From a bacterium (GTDB lineage Bacteria; Patescibacteriota; Minisyncoccia; Minisyncoccales; UBA10102): a stretch of DNA of 34,891 nucleotides. Shown here one piece after another: positions 7,714-29,363 of the stretch (positions are counted from its first letter, which is position 1; every line of letters begins with the position of its first letter). The DNA lies in contig JAQBTT010000004.1 of assembly GCA_027624865.1 (NCBI GenBank), positions 1 through 34,891 on the forward strand, in the 5' to 3' direction. The notes beneath the pieces are model-generated. The model saw nothing but the letters and a program-made list of their open reading frames with translations, made no database searches and was not told where the DNA came from. The position numbers and the translations under genes are program-made.

Positions 7714-10356
7714 TTAGTAAGAAACAAGGTTTAACAATCTTCCCTTCACAAACACTACGTTCTTTGGTTTTTTTGTAGGGAACCATTTTTGTATCTTCTC
7801 TTGCGCCAAAGCCAAAGCAACAGCCTCCTTCTCTTTGATACCAGGGGAAACTTCCACAACATCTCTTACTTTTCCATTTACCTGAATCACCAGACGAACA
7901 ACTTTTTCTTCCAATGCCTTTGGATCATACTCTGGCCAAGGCTGATTATGTACACTCCCCTCATTACCAAGCTTTTCCCAGAGCTCTTCTGTTAAATGGG
8001 GAGCAAAGGGCGAAAGAAGAATCAACAATGCATTAAATTGATCGAGTGTCACTGTCTTTTTTGAAAACTCATTTGAGTACTCCATGAGCGCTGCAATAGC
8101 AGTGTTATAACGAAGACCTTCCAAATCCTCAGTCACCTTCTTTATAGTTCGATGCCTTACCGCCTCAATTTCAACCCCTTGCGCCAAAACTCCACTACTA
8201 CGTAGTAGCAAAGTTTCCGCCCTCTTCTGTAATTGAGCATTTTCAGCAAAAGACCAAAGCCGGTTGAAGAATCTAGAAATACCAACAATCCCTTTATCTG
8301 ACCAGTCTCCACCTTCGCCGAGAGGACCAATAAACATTAAGTATGTTCGCACTGTATCTGCACCGTACTTTACAAAGTATTCATCTGGATTGACTACGTT
8401 CCCCTTGGACTTGGACATCTTGGCTCCCTCCTTAGTAATTAACCCATGGGCACGAAACTTTTTAAAAGGCTCTTCAAACTCAATATGCCCCATGTCTTTG
8501 AGCGCCATAGTGATGAATCTAGTGTAGAGAAGATGGAGCACTGCATGTTCATGCCCCCCAATGTACATATCTAAGGGAAGCCACCGCCGTGTAATCTGCT
8601 GATTCCACGGAATTTCTAATTTCGAATTTCTAATTTCTAAAACTGAATTCTTGGCCTCTACTGACGGATATCTTAAAAAATACCATGCTGAATCCAAGAA
8701 TGTATCTGAAACATCTGTCTCTCTCTTTGCTGGTCCTTTACATTCAGGGCATGTAGTTTCAACGAAGCTAGCAACCGAGGCTAATGGGGACTTCCCAGTT
8801 CCAGAAGGTCTGAAATCTTCAACATCAGGCAACAATACTGGAAGATCTTTTTCTTTGACAGGAACAATCATATGCTCTTTTCCCTCAATAATCGTATAAT
8901 CATGTCCTACGATTAAATTTCGGATTCCGGATTTCGGATTTCGGATTTCCCAGCATTTACGACAGTAAATGATGGGTATGGGAGGACCCCAGTATCGCTG
9001 GCGAGAGATGAGCCAGTCACGAAGATGATACTGCGTCTTGGGTTCTGCAAGTCCTTTTCTAATTACATATTTGATCACTTCTTGCCTTGCGTCACCAGCA
9101 CGTTTCCCAGAAAATTCATTGGGCTCCGCAAGATAACCATTGAGCATATCCGTATAGCACTCTTCGAGTTTCTCTACCCTTACCTTCTGCTCTTTATCTT
9201 TAGGAAACAATACAGGTTTCAATCGAATTCCATACTTTTTCGCAAAGGCAAAATCTCTCTCATCATGAGCAGAGCATTTTACGATACCTGTCCCATACTC
9301 CTTAATCGCATAGCTTGCAACCCAAATAGGTAAATCACCATTACCAACGGGATCAACTATATATCTCCCAGTAAAAATACCTTCGAATTTTTTTTCTTCT
9401 ACATAACCTTCTTTCTCGCGATTTTCGACTATCTTCTGGGAAAAACTCAAAATCTCTTTTTTATTTGGTACATCTTCAATCAAGGTCTCGAGTAACGGAT
9501 GGTCTGGGGCAATAACTACGAACGTGTCAGCCTGAAAAGCCTCAAAATGAGCCGAAAATGTTTGAATGTGAAGCTTTGAATTCTTAACAGGAGCAGTAAA
9601 GACAAGGCCTTCACTTTTACCAATCCAGTTTCTCTGCGCAATCTTTGTCTTCTCGGTCCAATCAATCCATTCTAAGTTTTTAAGTAAACGCTCTGCGTAC
9701 TTAGTAATACCAAAAAACCATTGCTCAAGCTCCTTTTGGATTACCTCAGAATTGCACCGCTCGCACTTTCCGTCAATAACTTGCTCATTAGCCAACACGG
9801 TCTTGCAAGAAGGGCACCACTCAACAGGAGCTTCTTTTTTATATGCAAGCCCTGCTTTGTATAATTGCAAAAAAAGCCACTGAGTCCACTTGTAGTACTC
9901 TGGTTCTGAAGTAGTTACACTATGCTCCCAATCAAAAAGACCTCCCAAGTGCTTAAGCTGCAAAGTAAAATTTTTAATATTCTTTGCAGTTTGTTCCTTG
10001 GGATGAGTTCCCTGCTTTATAGCAAAGTTTTCAGAATGGATACCAAAAGAATCAAACCCCATTGGTTCAAATACATCATTTCCTCGCATTCGCGCAAAGC
10101 GTCCATGAATATCAGAGCCGACAAAAGCATAGACGTTCCCCACATGTAATCCTTCGGCTGAAGGATACGGAAACATCATTAAGTTATAGTAAGGCTTTTT
10201 GGCCTTGGCCAAATCAACCTTCCAAGTCTTCTGACGTTCCCATTTAGTGCGCCACTTCTTTTCTATCTGTTGATGGTTATATCTATCCATTTTGCCCCTG
10301 CCCTCCGTAGCTTTATGCGAAGGAGGGTCTATTTTTTGATGATCGTAGCGCTCCAT
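7714..10356 (-). CDS. leuS: Leucyl-tRNA synthetase
   Basis: MFPYPSAEGLHVGN, KMSKSKGNVVNPD, FLDSAWYFLRYPS, YIGGHEHAVLHLLYTRF. Start may be the second Met at 10290. Confidence 0.97.
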   Translation of the reverse strand: MERYDHQKIDPPSHKATEGRGKMDRYNHQQIEKKWRTKWERQKTWKVDLAKAKKPYYNLMMFPYPSAEGLHVGNVYAFVGSDIHGRFARMRGNDVFEPMGFDSFGIHSENFAIKQGTHPKEQTAKNIKNFTLQLKHLGGLFDWEHSVTTSEPEYYKWTQWLFLQLYKAGLAYKKEAPVEWCPSCKTVLANEQVIDGKCERCNSEVIQKELEQWFFGITKYAERLLKNLEWIDWTEKTKIAQRNWIGKSEGLVFTAPVKNSKLHIQTFSAHFEAFQADTFVVIAPDHPLLETLIEDVPNKKEILSFSQKIVENREKEGYVEEKKFEGIFTGRYIVDPVGNGDLPIWVASYAIKEYGTGIVKCSAHDERDFAFAKKYGIRLKPVLFPKDKEQKVRVEKLEECYTDMLNGYLAEPNEFSGKRAGDARQEVIKYVIRKGLAEPKTQYHLRDWLISRQRYWGPPIPIIYCRKCWEIRNPKSGIRNLIVGHDYTIIEGKEHMIVPVKEKDLPVLLPDVEDFRPSGTGKSPLASVASFVETTCPECKGPAKRETDVSDTFLDSAWYFLRYPSVEAKNSVLEIRNSKLEIPWNQQITRRWLPLDMYIGGHEHAVLHLLYTRFITMALKDMGHIEFEEPFKKFRAHGLITKEGAKMSKSKGNVVNPDEYFVKYGADTVRTYLMFIGPLGEGGDWSDKGIVGISRFFNRLWSFAENAQLQKRAETLLLRSSGVLAQGVEIEAVRHRTIKKVTEDLEGLRYNTAIAALMEYSNEFSKKTVTLDQFNALLILLSPFAPHLTEELWEKLGNEGSVHNQPWPEYDPKALEEKVVRLVIQVNGKVRDVVEVSPGIKEKEAVALALAQEKIQKWFPTKKPKNVVFVKGRLLNLVSY
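8187..8216. repeat. LLRSSGV-family palindrome in leuS
   Basis: AAACT cca CTACTACGTAGTAG caa AGTTT. Confidence 0.8.
8611..8638. repeat. 4 x 7-bp tandem repeat in leuS
   Basis: AATTTCT AATTTCG AATTTCT AATTTCT. Confidence 0.85.
8918..8945. repeat. 4 x 7-bp tandem repeat in leuS
   Basis: TTTCGGA TTCCGGA TTTCGGA TTTCGGA. Confidence 0.85.
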
Positions 10357-11303: not shown

Positions 11304-11347
11304 CCTCGCTCGGAGCGAGGTGTGAATAACTCGCTCCGAGCGAGTTA
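11304..11347. terminator. Twin palindromes between convergent mutY and tatD
   Basis: CCTCGCTcggAGCGAGG and TAACTCGCTCcGAGCGAGTTA; together they also form a 15-bp inverted repeat. Confidence 0.5.
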
Positions 11348-12244
11348 CAAACTAAAGAGAGATTTAGCGTTTGCGGTTGTAGTAGAAGCAACTTCTTCTA
11401 TGGAGATATTTTTGATGCGAGCTATTTCCTCTGCTACATACCGTATAAACAAAGGTTCATTTCTCTCTGTTTTTGCTTCAGGTGGCGCAAGGTAAGGAGA
11501 ATCAGTTTCCAAAACAATTCTATCCAACGGCAGTGATTCAATAATATCCTCTGGATTGGGGAGCGCAGGAACATCTTTTAGTATAAGGCCATTAAAGCCA
11601 AAAGAAAGTCCAAGATTATAAAACTGCTCTGCTTGCTTTAAGTCTCCTGTATAGCAATGCACTACTCCTTTCAATTTTCCCTTATGAGGTTTTAAAAACT
11701 CTAGTAAGTCCTCATGCGCCTTACGGCAATGAAGAATAATTGGTAAATCTAACTCCTTGGCAAGCTTTATGTGTTGCGCTAAGGTGCTTTTTTGTTTCAT
11801 TCGCTCCGCTTGCCTTTTCTCTTTACTCTTTGACTCATAGTAATAATCTAGCCCACATTCCCCTACGGCAACCACCTTGCTGGGCCGTTGCTTCCCCAGG
11901 GGAAGCAACGGCCCTTGCGCGAGGGCTTTGTATTTTGCATACGAAAATTCCTCTTCATTCGTTTCAAAGGTCATCCATTCTTCTTCTTTTACATTCTCTG
12001 ATTGTACCTCTTGCACATCAACTCTGCGCTTTTCTGAGAGATGAATGGGGTGCAGACCAATAGCAGCATACACTCCTTTTTCGTATTGCTCCGCAAGCTC
12101 CACAGCTCGCTTTGAGGCTGCATACTGGGTACCAGGCATTATAACCCAAGTATCTTCTTTGAGTGTGCGCTCCAATACTTTATCTGCATCATGCTTAAAG
12201 GCATTGAAGCTTACATGACCATGGGTATCTATATACATATCCAC
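11345..12244 (-). CDS. tatD: TatD family metal-dependent hydrolase
   Basis: MYIDTHGHVSF, VVAVGECGLDYYYE, LPIILHCRKAHEDLL, VLETDSPYLAPP. Confidence 0.93.
   Translation of the reverse strand: MDMYIDTHGHVSFNAFKHDADKVLERTLKEDTWVIMPGTQYAASKRAVELAEQYEKGVYAAIGLHPIHLSEKRRVDVQEVQSENVKEEEWMTFETNEEEFSYAKYKALAQGPLLPLGKQRPSKVVAVGECGLDYYYESKSKEKRQAERMKQKSTLAQHIKLAKELDLPIILHCRKAHEDLLEFLKPHKGKLKGVVHCYTGDLKQAEQFYNLGLSFGFNGLILKDVPALPNPEDIIESLPLDRIVLETDSPYLAPPEAKTERNEPLFIRYVAEEIARIKNISIEEVASTTTANAKSLFSL
11882..11914. repeat. 33-bp perfect palindrome in frame in tatD
   Basis: GGGCCGTTGCTTCCCC a GGGGAAGCAACGGCCC. Confidence 0.95.
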
Positions 12245-14645: not shown

Positions 14646-14680
14646 CCCGCCGTAGCCAAGTCAGACTTGGCGAAGGCGGG
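14646..14680. repeat. 35-bp nested palindrome containing the metG stop codon
   Basis: CCCGCC gta GCCAAGT cag ACTTGGC gaa GGCGGG. Confidence 0.75.
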
Positions 14681-16118
14681 GAAAGAGGGATTCGCCTTTT
14701 CCCTCTTTGAGTTGCTCTGTAATTTTCTCTGCAGTTTCTGGGAGAAAGGGCTGCAGGAGTTTCGCGATATGGGAAAGAGCAAAAAGCAAATCCTCTATCA
14801 CTTCTCGTTGCTCTGCAGATTCTTCCCAGGGACGCTTTTGCTCAATATACCTGTCGCAAAACTGAATCAGGCGCCAAATACTTTCGAGCGCTTCGTTAAA
14901 CCGAAATTCTTCCAGTGCCTCAGCGCACTCCTTGTTTACACTCTCAATTATATGCTGAATTTCCAAATTATTCGCCGAAACTCCACTGCTACGTAGTAGC
15001 GAAGTATTAGCAGAATTCTGCGCCATGGTTACTACCCGCGAAACAAGATTACCCAAACCGCTTGCAAGGTCTGCGTTGTACCTTGTTTCAAACTTCTCAT
15101 AGCTAAAGTCCCCGTCTCCTGTAGAAGGAATCTCGCGCAAGAAAAAGTAGCGCACAGCGTCAACGCCATACTTTTTCACCAACTCAAAAGGGTCAATAAC
15201 ATTGCCAAGGGTTTTTGACATCTTTTGTCCGTCTATTGTCAGATAGCCATGAACAAATAGTGTTTTAGGCAAAGGCAAGCCTGCAGACAAAAGAAAGGCA
15301 GGCCAATACACAGCGTGAAAGCGAGTAATCCCTTTTCCAATGACATGCACATCTGCTGGCCACCACTTCTTGTACTTTTCCTCATCAAGCCCAAAACCCA
15401 CTCCTGATTGGTATATATTGAGTGCTTCCAGCCAGACGTAAATTTTTTGGCTATTATCCCCGGGAACAGAAACACCCCAGTTCTTTGCCCGCTCATTCGT
15501 ACGAGAAATGCTAATGTCTTGCAATGAGTTCTTTAAAAAAGCCAACACCTCATTCTTCCTTGTTATAGGCACAATACGCAGTTCATCTTTCTCTATCAAC
15601 CCAACAAGCTTTTCTTGATACTTTGAAAGTTTAAAAAAGTAGTTCTCCTCCGCAACTGTTTCCAGCTTTCTTCCTGGGTGTTCAAAACACTCCTGGTTTT
15701 CGTTCAGCTCGTCTGGGGTATAAAAAGTTTCACATCCTACGCAATAGAGACCCTCGTAAGACTTTTTGTAAATGTCTCCTGCTTTATCGCAAAGCTCCCA
15801 AAACTTCTGGATGGAAAGATGATGTTCCGGGCTGCTACCTTTTTGAAACACGTCAAATTGCACATTGAGATTTTTTGCCAAGTCCAAAAAAAGCTGTGCG
15901 TTTCTATCAACAAACTCTTGTACGGGAATTCCGGCCTGCTCTGCTGCCTGCACGTTTTTTAAGGCGTTCTCATCTCCGCCAGACAACAGCAAAACCTCCT
16001 CGCCTTTCAGGCGGTGAGAGCGCGCTATGACATCTGTTTGTACAAACTCCAACAGATGCCCCGCGTGGGGAACCGAGTTTACATACGGTATTGCAGTTGT
16101 GATATAAAACTTTGCCAT
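14661..16118 (-). CDS. metG: Methionyl-tRNA synthetase
   Basis: MAKFYITTAIPYVNSVPHAGHLLEFVQTD, KMSKTLGNVIDPFEL. Confidence 0.96.
   Translation of the reverse strand: MAKFYITTAIPYVNSVPHAGHLLEFVQTDVIARSHRLKGEEVLLLSGGDENALKNVQAAEQAGIPVQEFVDRNAQLFLDLAKNLNVQFDVFQKGSSPEHHLSIQKFWELCDKAGDIYKKSYEGLYCVGCETFYTPDELNENQECFEHPGRKLETVAEENYFFKLSKYQEKLVGLIEKDELRIVPITRKNEVLAFLKNSLQDISISRTNERAKNWGVSVPGDNSQKIYVWLEALNIYQSGVGFGLDEEKYKKWWPADVHVIGKGITRFHAVYWPAFLLSAGLPLPKTLFVHGYLTIDGQKMSKTLGNVIDPFELVKKYGVDAVRYFFLREIPSTGDGDFSYEKFETRYNADLASGLGNLVSRVVTMAQNSANTSLLRSSGVSANNLEIQHIIESVNKECAEALEEFRFNEALESIWRLIQFCDRYIEQKRPWEESAEQREVIEDLLFALSHIAKLLQPFLPETAEKITEQLKEGKGESLFPRLRQV
14978..15007. repeat. LLRSSGV-family palindrome in metG
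   Basis: AAACTCCACTGCTACGTAGTAGCGAAGTAT, near-identical to the leuS copy. Confidence 0.8.
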
Positions 16119-16160
16119 GATGTTCTTGTAGCATATATTCCTTCCCTTTTCCAATAAAAA

Positions 16161-17472: not shown

Positions 17473-17520
17473 TCCTGCCTAAGCTAAGCTTAGGAGCTCC
17501 TAAGCTTAGCTTAGGCAGGA
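17473..17520. repeat. 48-bp perfect palindrome (KLSL family), between the permease gene and rsmI
   Basis: TCCTGCCTAAGCTAAGCTTAGGA GC TCCTAAGCTTAGCTTAGGCAGGA. Confidence 0.95.
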
Positions 17521-24543: not shown

Positions 24544-27510
24544 CTATAACTTACGCATCCCAAGCCAAAGTTTCTTACCATCTAAGACGATTTCCCGCTC
24601 AACATCAAACACTTGTTTTGGTCGCGCGCCCTCTAGAAGATCTTTAATGCCTCCAATCTTTACAATGGTCTCTTTATGACGCAAAAACAGATTCTTTGCG
24701 CCAGCTTCTCCAGTATAGCGCAAAAGCACCCGATGCTCTGGCTTATATCCTGCATCTTTTCTCATCCCCTGCACATAGCGAAGTAACTCCCGAAGCGTTC
24801 CCTCTTCTTTGAGTGCTGGAGTAAGTGTAGTGTCAAGTTGCACATCTTCCTTTGCTGTAACGTCCATGACAACTTCCTTTACGTTCAATTCATCTTGAAG
24901 TAACGGCAAAACTTCTTCTCCAAGTTTTTCCTTAATGGTAAGTTTTGCTAAAGGCTGGCGCACCTTTATCCCTTCCTTTGCTCGCAGAGCCAACCCTTTG
25001 CTTGCAGTACTTCTTACTTGCTCCATTTGTTTTTCCAGCCTTGCGTTTTGTCTTTTCTTTTCCGCCTTTGGCCAATCTGCAAGGTGTACACTCCCCCCCA
25101 CAACTAATGGACTAGTGTGGGGGCGAGCCCCCACACTCATTTTTGAGTAGTGAGGGCTTCCTTTCCCATTTGTCTTTTCAAAGATATGCTCTGCCAAGAA
25201 AGGAATAAAGGGGGCGGCGAGCATACTTGTTTGGGAAAGCACGGAACCAAGAGTTGAGACTGCTTCATGCAGCTCTTTCTTGCTTTGTGGATTTTGGAAC
25301 CTGTTTCGGGATCTGCGAATATACCATAAAGAAAGATCATCAACCACAAAGGATTCAAGGGCGCGGGCAGCTCCCGTAATGTCATAGGTATCCATGCTTT
25401 TTGTCATATTTGATGCTGTCGTGTTCAAGCGAGATACAATCCACTGATCTAGCACATTCCTGCCTAAGCTTAGCTTAGGAGCTCCTAAGCTAAGCTTAGG
25501 CAGAAGCTTTGGAGCATAGGTTTCATAAAATACCAAAGAGTTCCAAAGCGTTAACATAAACTTCCTCAAGGTTTGCTGTAAATCTTTTTCAGAAAACAGC
25601 TTTGGATCCCAAGGATGATTGAGAGTATAAAAATACCAACGTACCGCATCCATGCCATACTTATCTGCCATATCCCATGGACTTACCACATTCCCTTTGG
25701 ACTTGGACATCTTCAACCCCTTCTCATCTAACACATGCCCAAGGGAGATAACATTTTTAAAAGGAGCCCCCTTCCCCAAAAGCGTGGATACGGCAAGCAA
25801 GGTGTAGAACCATCCTCGTGTTTGGTCTATGCCTTCCACAATATAATCTGCAGGAAACTCTTGTACCTTCTTTTCCCCCATCCAATGATTTTGCGCAAAA
25901 GGCATGGCTCCAGAATCATACCAAACATCAACCACATCTTTTACTCGTTTCATTGTTCCTTTACACTTTATGCAAGAAAACTCTACCTCATCTATAAAAG
26001 GCCTATGTACGTCAATCTCCTTTTTCCCTTTATATGGGTTACGCAAAAGCTTTTTTCCAAGCAGTTCTTTCACAGAGCCAACAACATCTTTTTCCTCACA
26101 TTTATTGCACTCCCAAATGGGCAAGGGAGTTCCCCAGTACCGTTCCCGCGAAAATGCCCAATCCTTCACTTCCTTTAACCATTCTCCCATTCTTCCCTCT
26201 TTTAAATGCCCAGGAATCCAATTTACCTTTCGATTATTTGCCAATAGCTGTTTTTTTACTTTCTGCATTGAGATAAACCAGCTTTCCTTTGCATAGTATA
26301 AAAGAGGGGTAGAGCATCTCCAGCAAAAAGGGTACTCATGTTCATACAGCTCTTCTTTCAGCAAAAGCCCTGCCTTTTTTAAATCAGCCACAATCAAAGG
26401 ATTAGCATCTTTCACAAACTTTCCTACATATGGTGCTGCCTCTTTTGTAAACTTTCCTTGTTCATCCACTAAATGTAGCATGGCAAGATTCTCCTTTTTC
26501 CCAAGCTCAAAGTCTTCTGCTCCATACGCAACCGCAGTATGCACAATACCTGTTCCGTCCTCTGTTGAAACAAAATCTGCTGTGACAACTTCCCATATCT
26601 TTTTTCCCTCTTGTGGCTTTCCAAAACGAAATAGAGGTTCATACTTTATCCCTACAAGATCTTTTCCAAGAAAGGTTTTTACCACGCTATATTCTCCAAG
26701 TACTTTTTTTGCAAGGCTTTTTGCTACAATATAGTATTGCTTTTCTTTTTTCACTAAGACATAGGGAATACTCGCGCCAACTGCCAGCGCAACGTTTCCA
26801 GGCAGAGTCCAAGGAGTGGTGGTCCAGGCCAAAAAATAAGTATCTAGTATTTTGTATTTTGTATTTAGTATTTTCTTTAAACTTTCTGGCGGTATCTTGA
26901 ATTTAGCATACACCGAAAGATCTTTTACCGTTTTGTACCCTTGAGCAAGTTCATGGGAAGAAAGAGAAGTCCCACACCGCGTGCAAAAAGGTACCACCTT
27001 ATAGTCTTTATACAAGAGCCCCTTCTCCCACCATGTTTTGATAATATGCCAAAGAGTTTCAATGTATGGAGTTTCATACGTGATGTATGCATCATCCATA
27101 TCCAGCCATACCCCCGCTCTATCTGTAAGATCCTCCCACTCCTTTTTGTATTTCCATACTGATTTTCGGCACTCCTCATTAAATTTTTCAATACCATATT
27201 CTTCAATATCTTTTTTGGACTTGAGTCCCAGCTGCTTCTCTACTTCAAGCTCCACAGGAAGACCATGAGTATCCCACCCAGCTTTTCTGGGGACAAAAAA
27301 TCCTCGCATGGTTTTATAGCGAAGCACGACATCTTTAAAGGATCGTGCTGCTATATGGTGCAGCCCTGGCCTTCCATTTGCAGCAGGTGGGCCTTCATAA
27401 AACACAAAAGAAGGAGAGCCTTTTCTCTTAGCAACAGATTTTGCAAAGGTTTTATCTCGCTCCCAACGCTTGAGAATTTGTTCTTCCAGCTTGGGAAAAT
27501 TTGCTTCCAT
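24544..27510 (-). CDS. ileS: Isoleucyl-tRNA synthetase
   Basis: FYEGPPAANGRPGLHHI, KMSKSKGNVVSPWDMADKYG, AWTTTPWTLPGNVALAV. Confidence 0.97.
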   Translation of the reverse strand: MEANFPKLEEQILKRWERDKTFAKSVAKRKGSPSFVFYEGPPAANGRPGLHHIAARSFKDVVLRYKTMRGFFVPRKAGWDTHGLPVELEVEKQLGLKSKKDIEEYGIEKFNEECRKSVWKYKKEWEDLTDRAGVWLDMDDAYITYETPYIETLWHIIKTWWEKGLLYKDYKVVPFCTRCGTSLSSHELAQGYKTVKDLSVYAKFKIPPESLKKILNTKYKILDTYFLAWTTTPWTLPGNVALAVGASIPYVLVKKEKQYYIVAKSLAKKVLGEYSVVKTFLGKDLVGIKYEPLFRFGKPQEGKKIWEVVTADFVSTEDGTGIVHTAVAYGAEDFELGKKENLAMLHLVDEQGKFTKEAAPYVGKFVKDANPLIVADLKKAGLLLKEELYEHEYPFCWRCSTPLLYYAKESWFISMQKVKKQLLANNRKVNWIPGHLKEGRMGEWLKEVKDWAFSRERYWGTPLPIWECNKCEEKDVVGSVKELLGKKLLRNPYKGKKEIDVHRPFIDEVEFSCIKCKGTMKRVKDVVDVWYDSGAMPFAQNHWMGEKKVQEFPADYIVEGIDQTRGWFYTLLAVSTLLGKGAPFKNVISLGHVLDEKGLKMSKSKGNVVSPWDMADKYGMDAVRWYFYTLNHPWDPKLFSEKDLQQTLRKFMLTLWNSLVFYETYAPKLLPKLSLGAPKLSLGRNVLDQWIVSRLNTTASNMTKSMDTYDITGAARALESFVVDDLSLWYIRRSRNRFQNPQSKKELHEAVSTLGSVLSQTSMLAAPFIPFLAEHIFEKTNGKGSPHYSKMSVGARPHTSPLVVGGSVHLADWPKAEKKRQNARLEKQMEQVRSTASKGLALRAKEGIKVRQPLAKLTIKEKLGEEVLPLLQDELNVKEVVMDVTAKEDVQLDTTLTPALKEEGTLRELLRYVQGMRKDAGYKPEHRVLLRYTGEAGAKNLFLRHKETIVKIGGIKDLLEGARPKQVFDVEREIVLDGKKLWLGMRKL
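25114..25137. repeat. Perfect palindrome inside ileS
   Basis: AGTGTGGGGGC ga GCCCCCACACT. Confidence 0.85.
25460..25503. repeat. 44-bp perfect palindrome (KLSL family) in frame in ileS
   Basis: CTGCCTAAGCTTAGCTTAGGA GC TCCTAAGCTAAGCTTAGGCAG; encodes LPKLSLGAPKLSLGR. Confidence 0.95.
26845..26872. repeat. 4 x 7-bp tandem repeat in ileS
   Basis: TAGTATT TTGTATT TTGTATT TAGTATT. Confidence 0.85.
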
Positions 27511-27552: not shown

Positions 27553-27587
27553 TAGGACTGCTTGAAACCCGGTTTCAAGCAGTCCTA
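27553..27587. repeat. 35-bp perfect palindrome supplying the argS stop codon
   Basis: TAGGACTGCTTGAAACC c GGTTTCAAGCAGTCCTA. Confidence 0.95.
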
Positions 27588-29363
27588 CATTTGCTCTAGA
27601 GTTTTGATGCCCAAAAGGTGAAGAGAGTTTTGGATAATCTGAGCTGTCGCTGAAGTAAGCAAGAGACGAAAGTCCTTTTGCTCTTTAGTATCTGCTTTTA
27701 ATACACGATGCTTTGCATAAAAATTATTGTATGCTTGAGCTACATCAAACACAAAACCTGCAACCATATGGGGGGTAAAGTTTTTTGCGCTATCTCGCGC
27801 TACTTCAGGGAATCTATACAGTAGCCGCAACAAAACTACCTCCTCTTTAACTAAGCTAAGCTTAGCAAAACTTACTAAGCTTAGCTTAGTTAAAGGTTCT
27901 GTTTCGCGAAGAATACTCTTGCACCGCACATAGGTATATTGAAGGTAGGGACCACTCTCTCCTTGTAAGCTCAAAGACTTTTCAAAATCAAAAATAATAT
28001 CTTTCCCAAGGCTCACGCGAAGCAAAGAGTATTTTATTGCGCCTATTGCAATAGTTTCTGCTGCACTTTCCTGTTCCTCTTTTGCCACCTCACTTTCTGA
28101 GGATTTCATAATGTCGCGTACCCTTCGCTTCACCTCATCAATCAATTCTTCTCCTGTCACAATATTTCCACTACGACTGGACATCTTTCCTTCTGGCAGG
28201 CGCACCATTCCATGTGAAAGATGCTTAGTTTTTTCGCTAAGCATTGGATCAATTTCCTTTAGCGCGGCAAGCAGTACCTTGAAGTAGTCAATGATTTCAT
28301 TTCCCGTGATAATTAAAGAAAGGTCATACTGAAAATCCTTGTACTTTGTAGGGGCGAGTCCAAGTTCCTTTGCCTCATACGTTGGCAATCCCTTGGAGTT
28401 AATAAATACTCTGCTATGTAAGCCGTATTTCTCCCCAGGAAAAATAATTGCTCCTTGGCTTTTCTCAAAGATTCCTTTTTTTACTCCCTCTTCCACAATC
28501 TTTTTTCCTATCTTTGCAGAGTCACTTTCAAAGTAGTAGGTATCAAACTTTGTTCCAAGACGCTCATACATTTGTTTAAAATAGTCAAGGCTCCATTTTT
28601 TGCCTTGCTCATATAAACGATTAACTTCTTTATCGCTTTTATCATATACAGCTGTATTAATTTCATTGATTCTTTTTGTATCATCACTCTCTTCTTGTTT
28701 CTGCCAAGAATCTCTACTATCTTTTGGAGAGCCGACAAGAAGGATTTTATCTACTGGCTCATACACTGAATTACCATACGCATAGCATGCACCTAAAAAT
28801 TGAGCTTTTTTTGAAAGCGAAGCTTTCTCTTCTGGCATCTGGTGTGAGGATTGCTGCATTCCCCAAATTGCCTTTGCAACATGCAGTCCAACATCCCCTT
28901 GGTAGTTCACGCGCTTCACTTCTGCTCCTTGTAACTCAAGAAGTCTTGATATGCTCTCTCCTGCAGCATTGCTATATAAATGCCCAATATGAAACTCTTT
29001 AAATGGATTTGGGTCAGTAAACTCCACCATCACTTTTTTCTTTCCTTCCCCGCGCCCATACTTTTCTTTCTTTCCCGCTATCTCTTTTGCTTCTCTTATA
29101 AAGTACTTTTTGGTTAAAAAGAAATTTAAAAACCCAGGACCTGCTACCTCGACTTTTTCGAGGAAATCCAAAGCACGAATATCGAAATTCGAAACGATAG
29201 ATTCCGCGACTTCGCGGGGATTCTTGCCGAGCTGTTTTGCCAAAACTAAGGCGACATTGGTGGAATAGTCTCCATACTCCATATTCTCTGGGTGCTCAAA
29301 AACAATCTCCGCGTCATCACTGAGCGCCTTCCTTACCATCTTTTCCAGTTCCTTCACAATCAT
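27585..29363 (-). CDS. argS: Arginyl-tRNA synthetase
   Basis: VEFTDPNPFKEFHIGHLYSNAAGESISRLLE, HLSHGMVRLPEGKMSSRSGNIVTGEELI, YLQYTYVRCKSIL. Confidence 0.97.
   Translation of the reverse strand: MIVKELEKMVRKALSDDAEIVFEHPENMEYGDYSTNVALVLAKQLGKNPREVAESIVSNFDIRALDFLEKVEVAGPGFLNFFLTKKYFIREAKEIAGKKEKYGRGEGKKKVMVEFTDPNPFKEFHIGHLYSNAAGESISRLLELQGAEVKRVNYQGDVGLHVAKAIWGMQQSSHQMPEEKASLSKKAQFLGACYAYGNSVYEPVDKILLVGSPKDSRDSWQKQEESDDTKRINEINTAVYDKSDKEVNRLYEQGKKWSLDYFKQMYERLGTKFDTYYFESDSAKIGKKIVEEGVKKGIFEKSQGAIIFPGEKYGLHSRVFINSKGLPTYEAKELGLAPTKYKDFQYDLSLIITGNEIIDYFKVLLAALKEIDPMLSEKTKHLSHGMVRLPEGKMSSRSGNIVTGEELIDEVKRRVRDIMKSSESEVAKEEQESAAETIAIGAIKYSLLRVSLGKDIIFDFEKSLSLQGESGPYLQYTYVRCKSILRETEPLTKLSLVSFAKLSLVKEEVVLLRLLYRFPEVARDSAKNFTPHMVAGFVFDVAQAYNNFYAKHRVLKADTKEQKDFRLLLTSATAQIIQNSLHLLGIKTLEQM
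27845..27895. repeat. 51-bp inverted repeat (KLSL family) in frame in argS
   Basis: CTTTAACTAAGCTAAGCTTAG n9 CTAAGCTTAGCTTAGTTAAAG; encodes LTKLSLVSFAKLSLVK. Confidence 0.95.

Follow-up and report, generated by a model that had tools for sequence, protein, structure and literature searches.

An in-frame palindrome in a patescibacterial argS gene as a probable REPIN-type element of a divergent RAYT system with dialect turnover

Introduction

What keeps a perfect palindrome intact inside the coding sequence of argS? In the window (the whole 34,891-nt stretch of DNA analysed here), which belongs to the 559-kb genome of a Parcubacteria-like bacterium related to Ca. Wildermuthbacteria (G000 below), argS (27585..29363, minus strand) carries such an element at 27845..27895, where the DALR_1 domain region begins. 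A first-pass annotation had attributed the upkeep of the palindrome to selection or gene conversion, a fair partial guess that missed the agent to which our analysis points, a REP-associated tyrosine transposase (RAYT) system.

REPIN-RAYT systems are widespread and, to our knowledge, neither their role nor the mode of REP family change is known. REPINs or BIMEs with their RAYT (TnpA-REP) have been described in E. coli, Pseudomonas and Stenotrophomonas (PMC2817692, PMC3116915, PMC8266576). Intragenic GTAG/CGTC REPs and Rickettsia palindromic elements (RPEs) occur as in-frame monomers or dimers in housekeeping and repair genes, among them uvrA, uvrB and tRNA synthetase genes, and RPE-4/6 have been classed as CGTC REPs (PMC3733652). 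In the REP 'orthoswitch' of Pseudomonas and Stenotrophomonas, syntenic RAYTs of related strains have REPs of different classes at their flanks, and the published model holds that old REPs remain and decay as new ones spread (PMC3686654).

Results

The argS palindrome belongs to a family of paired hairpin units

The argS element reads CTTTAACTAAGCTAAGCTTAG-CAAAACTTA-CTAAGCTTAGCTTAGTTAAAG, with perfect 21-bp arms at 27845-27865 and 27875-27895 around a 9-nt loop at 27866-27874, exactly as first annotated; on the minus strand it encodes LTKLSLVSFAKLSLVK in frame, between KSILRETEP and EEVVLLRLLYRFPEV. Folded as single-stranded DNA it reaches -20 kcal/mol (z = -7.1), a value as low being obtained in 0 of 200 shuffles. 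Its arms hold two inverted copies of a 15-bp unit, CTAAG-CTAAG-CTTAG, made of 5-bp palindromic arms and a 5-nt centre, the first at 27851..27865 (plus strand) and the second at 27875..27889 (minus strand), and palindromic flanks often extend past the core, as with CTTTAA/TTAAAG in argS and GCTC/GAGC in cca.

This 15-mer is the unit of a genome-wide family. The core TAAGCTAAGCTTAG has 66 matches on both strands of G000, at 38 loci, compared with 0 for the reversed control, and its 12-mers are about 1200-fold above order-2 expectation. Units form inverted doublets that can fold as a hairpin, a few doublets being direct repeats instead, and roughly two thirds of the loci lie outside genes and one third inside. 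Pairs within genes measure 36 bp (6-nt spacer, mostly GAGCTC) or, in argS, 39 bp, and are always placed in the KLSL frame, the sole open one. Out-of-gene pairs are mostly 40 bp long with a 10-nt TTATCCACAC-type spacer, other extragenic units being single. The bias towards frame-compatible lengths for which the first-pass annotation had proposed a test is present: strict in-gene pairs are multiples of three in 12 of 12 cases, compared with 4 of 15 outside genes (Fisher p = 2e-4), and in the sister species G004 the corresponding figures are 11/12 and 12/37 (p = 5e-4). In-gene copies are thus shown to be filtered for lengths and for a frame that stays open.

The intergenic 10-nt spacer equals the DnaA box TTATCCACA, and 40-bp copies with this spacer stand at gene ends and in intergenic DNA. 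The box consensus is 4-6-fold over expectation in both G000 and G004, mostly because it is the spacer of the intergenic elements. The GT[AG]G tetranucleotide is absent from the foot of the hairpins, where unit flanks read TTATCCACA/TGTGGATAA or TGC/GCA.

Other copies in the window had been placed in ileS and rsmI. The core is indeed common to the family, and the ileS copy (25460..25503, minus strand; core 25464-25499, spacer GAGCTC) is truly in the gene. The second copy (17475..17518, minus strand; core 17479-17514) lies a short way 5' of the codon at which rsmI probably starts: the open reading frame continues through it, the conserved RsmI start MGTFYIVATPIG follows just downstream, and RsmI relatives align only from that start onward, so this copy is probably not translated. 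Neither it nor a transketolase-like copy is counted as a translated insert, since both probably precede the true start. Its position directly 5' of the probable start may affect translation or termination. A simple terminator was rejected for the in-gene copies, through which transcription must run. Between mutY and tatD, at 11305..11344, an intergenic element of the same architecture occurs in another dialect (CTCGC-TCGGA-GCGAG / GTGTGAATAA / CTCGC-TCCGA-GCGAG).

Orthologous sites carry different dialects

Ten of 13 in-gene sites are co-occupied in G004, a species of the same genus, in the dialect of G004 or another. The G004 spelling CTAAA-CGAGA-TTTAG is found at ileS, dprA, pth, cca, murE-like, nadE-like, tsaD (two sites) and rnhB, and argS of G004 has yet another spelling. 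Co-occupied positions agree to the codon at cca, murE-like, nadE-like, tsaD and others, and the coincidence of in-gene sites has p below 1e-14 even with only 5% of codons permissive. Syntenic intergenic gaps are co-occupied in 8 of 13 cases, compared with an overall gap occupancy of 14% (p = 1e-4). Copies of the G004 dialect number 142 in G004 (within 2 mismatches), with no intact one left in G000.

The argS site itself holds four dialects (G000, G001, G003 and G004) and, in G002, a decayed insert. At ileS the dialect differs in each of four species, G000, G001, G003 and G004, and the arms are compensatory; at this single site 8 of 15 pairs have changed on both sides and 97% are paired. Across eight dialects, 11 of 15 pairs have changed on both sides with 98% of cells paired, which bears out the earlier expectation of compensatory changes that keep pairing. 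At shared sites, the peptides of orthologues are unrelated (KRDL/KSRL, RLGL/RPSL, SYSHL) or stem from decayed inserts.

Pairing would nevertheless not be kept up by slow compensation in each copy, as the first-pass annotation might suggest; rather, whole elements or single 15-bp units appear to be swapped in place for those of another dialect. Point-mutation drift of each copy is unlikely as the only process, since one site can also vary between species in the length and type of the spacer and in the number and orientation of units. Mosaics of two dialects occur at L014:2925-2964, L017:6105-6144, L022:3294-3333 and L024:12073-12112, for example CTTGG-TTTGG-CCAAG / TTATCCCCAC / CTAAG-CTAAG-CTTAG, and several seemingly solitary G000 units are halves of mosaics. 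This pattern favours unit-wise replacement in place, which would follow a change of RAYT/REP specificity; replacement in place is read from comparison between species, G000 against the distant G004 (about 65-80% protein identity at these loci, intermediates unseen), and not from transposition or conversion events. Arms decaying independently in relatives, which had been named as evidence against maintenance, do occur in G002, a genome with decayed copies and no RAYT of the clade described below, and this decay fits upkeep by a transposase and not by the encoded peptide.

In G004:C1 we also observed a second REPIN family, CTTAATGAAATTAAG / GATTC / CTTAATTTCATTAAG, with a 5-nt spacer and 31 nongenic and 3 genic pairs.

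One RAYT clade is flanked by such units

The G000 genome has several Y1_Tnp (PF01797) genes, one of which, at G000:C11:4228-4947, has the same units on both sides. Its product matches PF01797 over the cut-off, has the HUH motif PNHFHLLL and belongs to a clade with the motif DCLK[PS]NH[FY]H (support 100/97). Nine genomes of the family encode a member of this clade (identity of at least 71%), and G017 encodes two. Where the flanks of clade RAYTs could be read, they hold 5-5-5 hairpin units of a dialect particular to that RAYT, as a rule next to a TTATCCACA-type spacer; the exception is G012, where the gene is at a contig edge and only a downstream unit, imperfect at one pair, is present. As predicted, the G004 RAYT locus is flanked by G004-dialect units, and the prediction also held for G011 and its own units.

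A search of the RAYT sequence directly against the PDB gave no match, and for this reason we turned to fold comparison. Among PDB entries, 4ER8, the structure of E. coli TnpA-REP bound to a REP hairpin, matches the AlphaFold model (pLDDT 93) best (E = 2e-6, probability 1.00, TM-score 0.47/0.66), and the protein is thus predicted to have the TnpA-REP fold. The NP[LV][RK]xG motif is absent from the RAYT, the position reading NPGQELE. The system works like known REPIN-RAYT systems; as it lacks their canonical markers, the GT[AG]G foot and NP[LV][RK]xG, it is a divergent variant. Judged by its substitution pattern, the RAYT is strongly conserved (dN/dS about 0.05, with dS saturated).

Gene and units do not always go together. 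The G004 RAYT has an in-frame TAG, and many units are kept in G004 despite this premature stop; G001 has well-formed units and no RAYT of the clade in an 84%-complete assembly; and G008 has six TTATCCACACCT sites and no RAYT match. In G005 (L202, G005:C2:5500-9100), the truncated start of an older RAYT and a CTAAACGAGATTTAA-dialect unit lie beside the present RAYT with its new dialect.

The RAYT gene lies in a competence neighbourhood

Gene order in G000 runs PurA/DUF3276-like, RAYT, comF, a gene for a four-helix protein, dprA and comM. In eight of the nine genomes that carry the clade, comF adjoins the RAYT gene with dprA within about 2 kb, the exception being G023, in which the RAYT is at a contig end and dprA has no match. 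Five of these loci could be located again in public records, each with comF, dprA and comM in succession, and more distant RAYTs, in Nealsonbacteria and others, are also in the cluster, sometimes between dprA and comM. Co-occurrence of RAYT and dprA (8/1/5/11, Fisher p = 0.011) is a weak signal, given the physical linkage of the genes and the incompleteness of the assemblies.

Discussion

Taken together, we consider it likely, with a probability of roughly three in four, that the argS palindrome is a REPIN-type element of a single-copy Y1/HUH RAYT whose new dialects overwrite old ones at existing sites. The element would consist of two inverted 15-bp REP-like hairpin units, and the gene for its putative transposase lies at another place in the genome, ahead of comF-dprA-comM. 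This enzyme may nick or copy its cognate hairpins as single-stranded DNA; when the specificity of RAYT and REP shifts, units of the new dialect would overwrite existing sites by conversion, beyond merely colonising new ones. Copies inside genes would be passengers that are tolerated in surface loops or linkers and whose peptides have no selected function.

The same REPIN-RAYT system could produce a similar picture if old elements were lost and new-dialect ones re-inserted independently at a few permissive or preferred hot spots. The sites do lie in variable loops, unrelated inserts are found near some of them (uvrC in G004, leuS in G000), and the recurrent element ends TGC/GCA could reflect a target; however, the agreement is codon-exact, with the coincidence far too strong even if one codon in twenty were permissive, and the mosaics join one old and one new unit around a common spacer, so that we regard repeated insertion as unlikely. 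Much less probable still is that host selection maintains the motif as a DNA site with a function of its own (in protein binding, in relation to the DnaA box or in uptake), the nearby transposase being incidental. A 10-nt spacer that matches the DnaA box and is conserved while the arms change, the enrichment of that box, mostly beside units, and the position of the RAYT in a competence locus would all suit such a site, but the 36-bp copies in genes have no box, each RAYT has its own dialect at its flanks, and covariation within each 15-mer fits recognition of the hairpin.

In-frame palindromes selected for an open frame in housekeeping genes also resemble RPEs, and could be passenger DNA without a dedicated transposase; this is very improbable, since the genome has a cognate transposase gene with the same units at its flanks. 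Least credible of all is that selection acts on the KLSL...KLSL peptide as a feature of ArgRS, IleRS and other proteins. Only one reading frame is used, but the other frames contain stop codons and the frame therefore follows from the sequence, the same repeats also occur outside genes, and selection on the peptide was rejected on the ground that orthologues encode unrelated peptides at the site.

A REPIN-type element that is probably overwritten in place invites comparison with known systems. Dispersed short hairpin units in inverted pairs and a Y1 transposase gene with its own class of unit on its flanks are shared with REPIN-RAYT systems, from which the present one differs in its 15-bp 5-5-5 units with a conserved TTATCCACA-type spacer and no GT[AG]G tag, in having about one third of its loci in genes, in its conserved RAYT in a competence locus and in the re-use of sites by new dialects. 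In-frame palindromic insertion in protein genes recalls RPEs, but here the units are of another class than those of intragenic REPs and RPEs, are linked to a RAYT and turn over at orthologous sites. In Neisseria and Pasteurellaceae, DNA uptake sequences are dialect-like short repeats, often in inverted pairs, with a link to competence and thousands of copies. The likeness lies in the dialects, the inverted pairs and the competence connection; the difference lies in a copy number of 66 units per 559 kb, not hundreds to thousands, and in the hairpin with its dedicated HUH transposase. As in the orthoswitch, syntenic RAYTs have differing flanking REP classes, but in the present family the new dialect is found at the old sites, and mosaics occur.

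Earlier work has described REPs inside genes (PMC3733652), REPINs (PMC3116915), RAYTs (PMC2817692) and, at syntenic RAYTs, switches of REP class (PMC3686654). The open-access literature searched yielded nothing specific on REP/RAYT or uptake sequences in Patescibacteria, and no description of a non-GTAG 5-5-5 class with a DnaA-box-like spacer, of orthologous in-gene sites re-used by new dialects with mosaics, or of a conserved RAYT in a competence cluster. Orthologous insertion sites in essential genes let dialect turnover be followed copy by copy, and the mosaics argue for unit-wise overwriting, a mode outside the published orthoswitch model.

The tie between a conserved RAYT and comF-dprA-comM further provides a testable competence hypothesis for domesticated RAYTs. 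Transforming single-stranded DNA is handled by ComFC and DprA (PMC9005727), and as single-stranded DNA is also the substrate of TnpA-REP, a role for the RAYT in handling it is plausible, though unproven; the synteny could result from linkage and common descent. More speculatively, and in our judgement doubtful, the RAYT may have been co-opted to recognise its own hairpin dialect on incoming single-stranded DNA, transformation and nicking then driving in-place replacement genome-wide. If so, self recognition or processing of incoming DNA would take place beside ComF, DprA and ComM, and the dialects would behave like codes for uptake or self-recognition, drifting from species to species.

Other repeats in the window

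Between ileS and argS, at 27553-27587, lies a perfect 17-bp palindrome, TAGGACTGCTTGAAACC, of a separate family with at most 13 12-mer copies in the genome. A 16-bp palindrome, GGGCCGTTGCTTCCCC, is in frame in the tatD-like gene at 11882-11914, its core 12-mers having about 6 copies per genome, and ileS has as its second insert an imperfect 30-bp inverted repeat at 25095-25156, in frame and of low copy. The leuS and metG genes (7714-10356 and 14661-16154) both contain an LLRSSGV peptide repeat, which in leuS occupies the position of a REPIN in G004.
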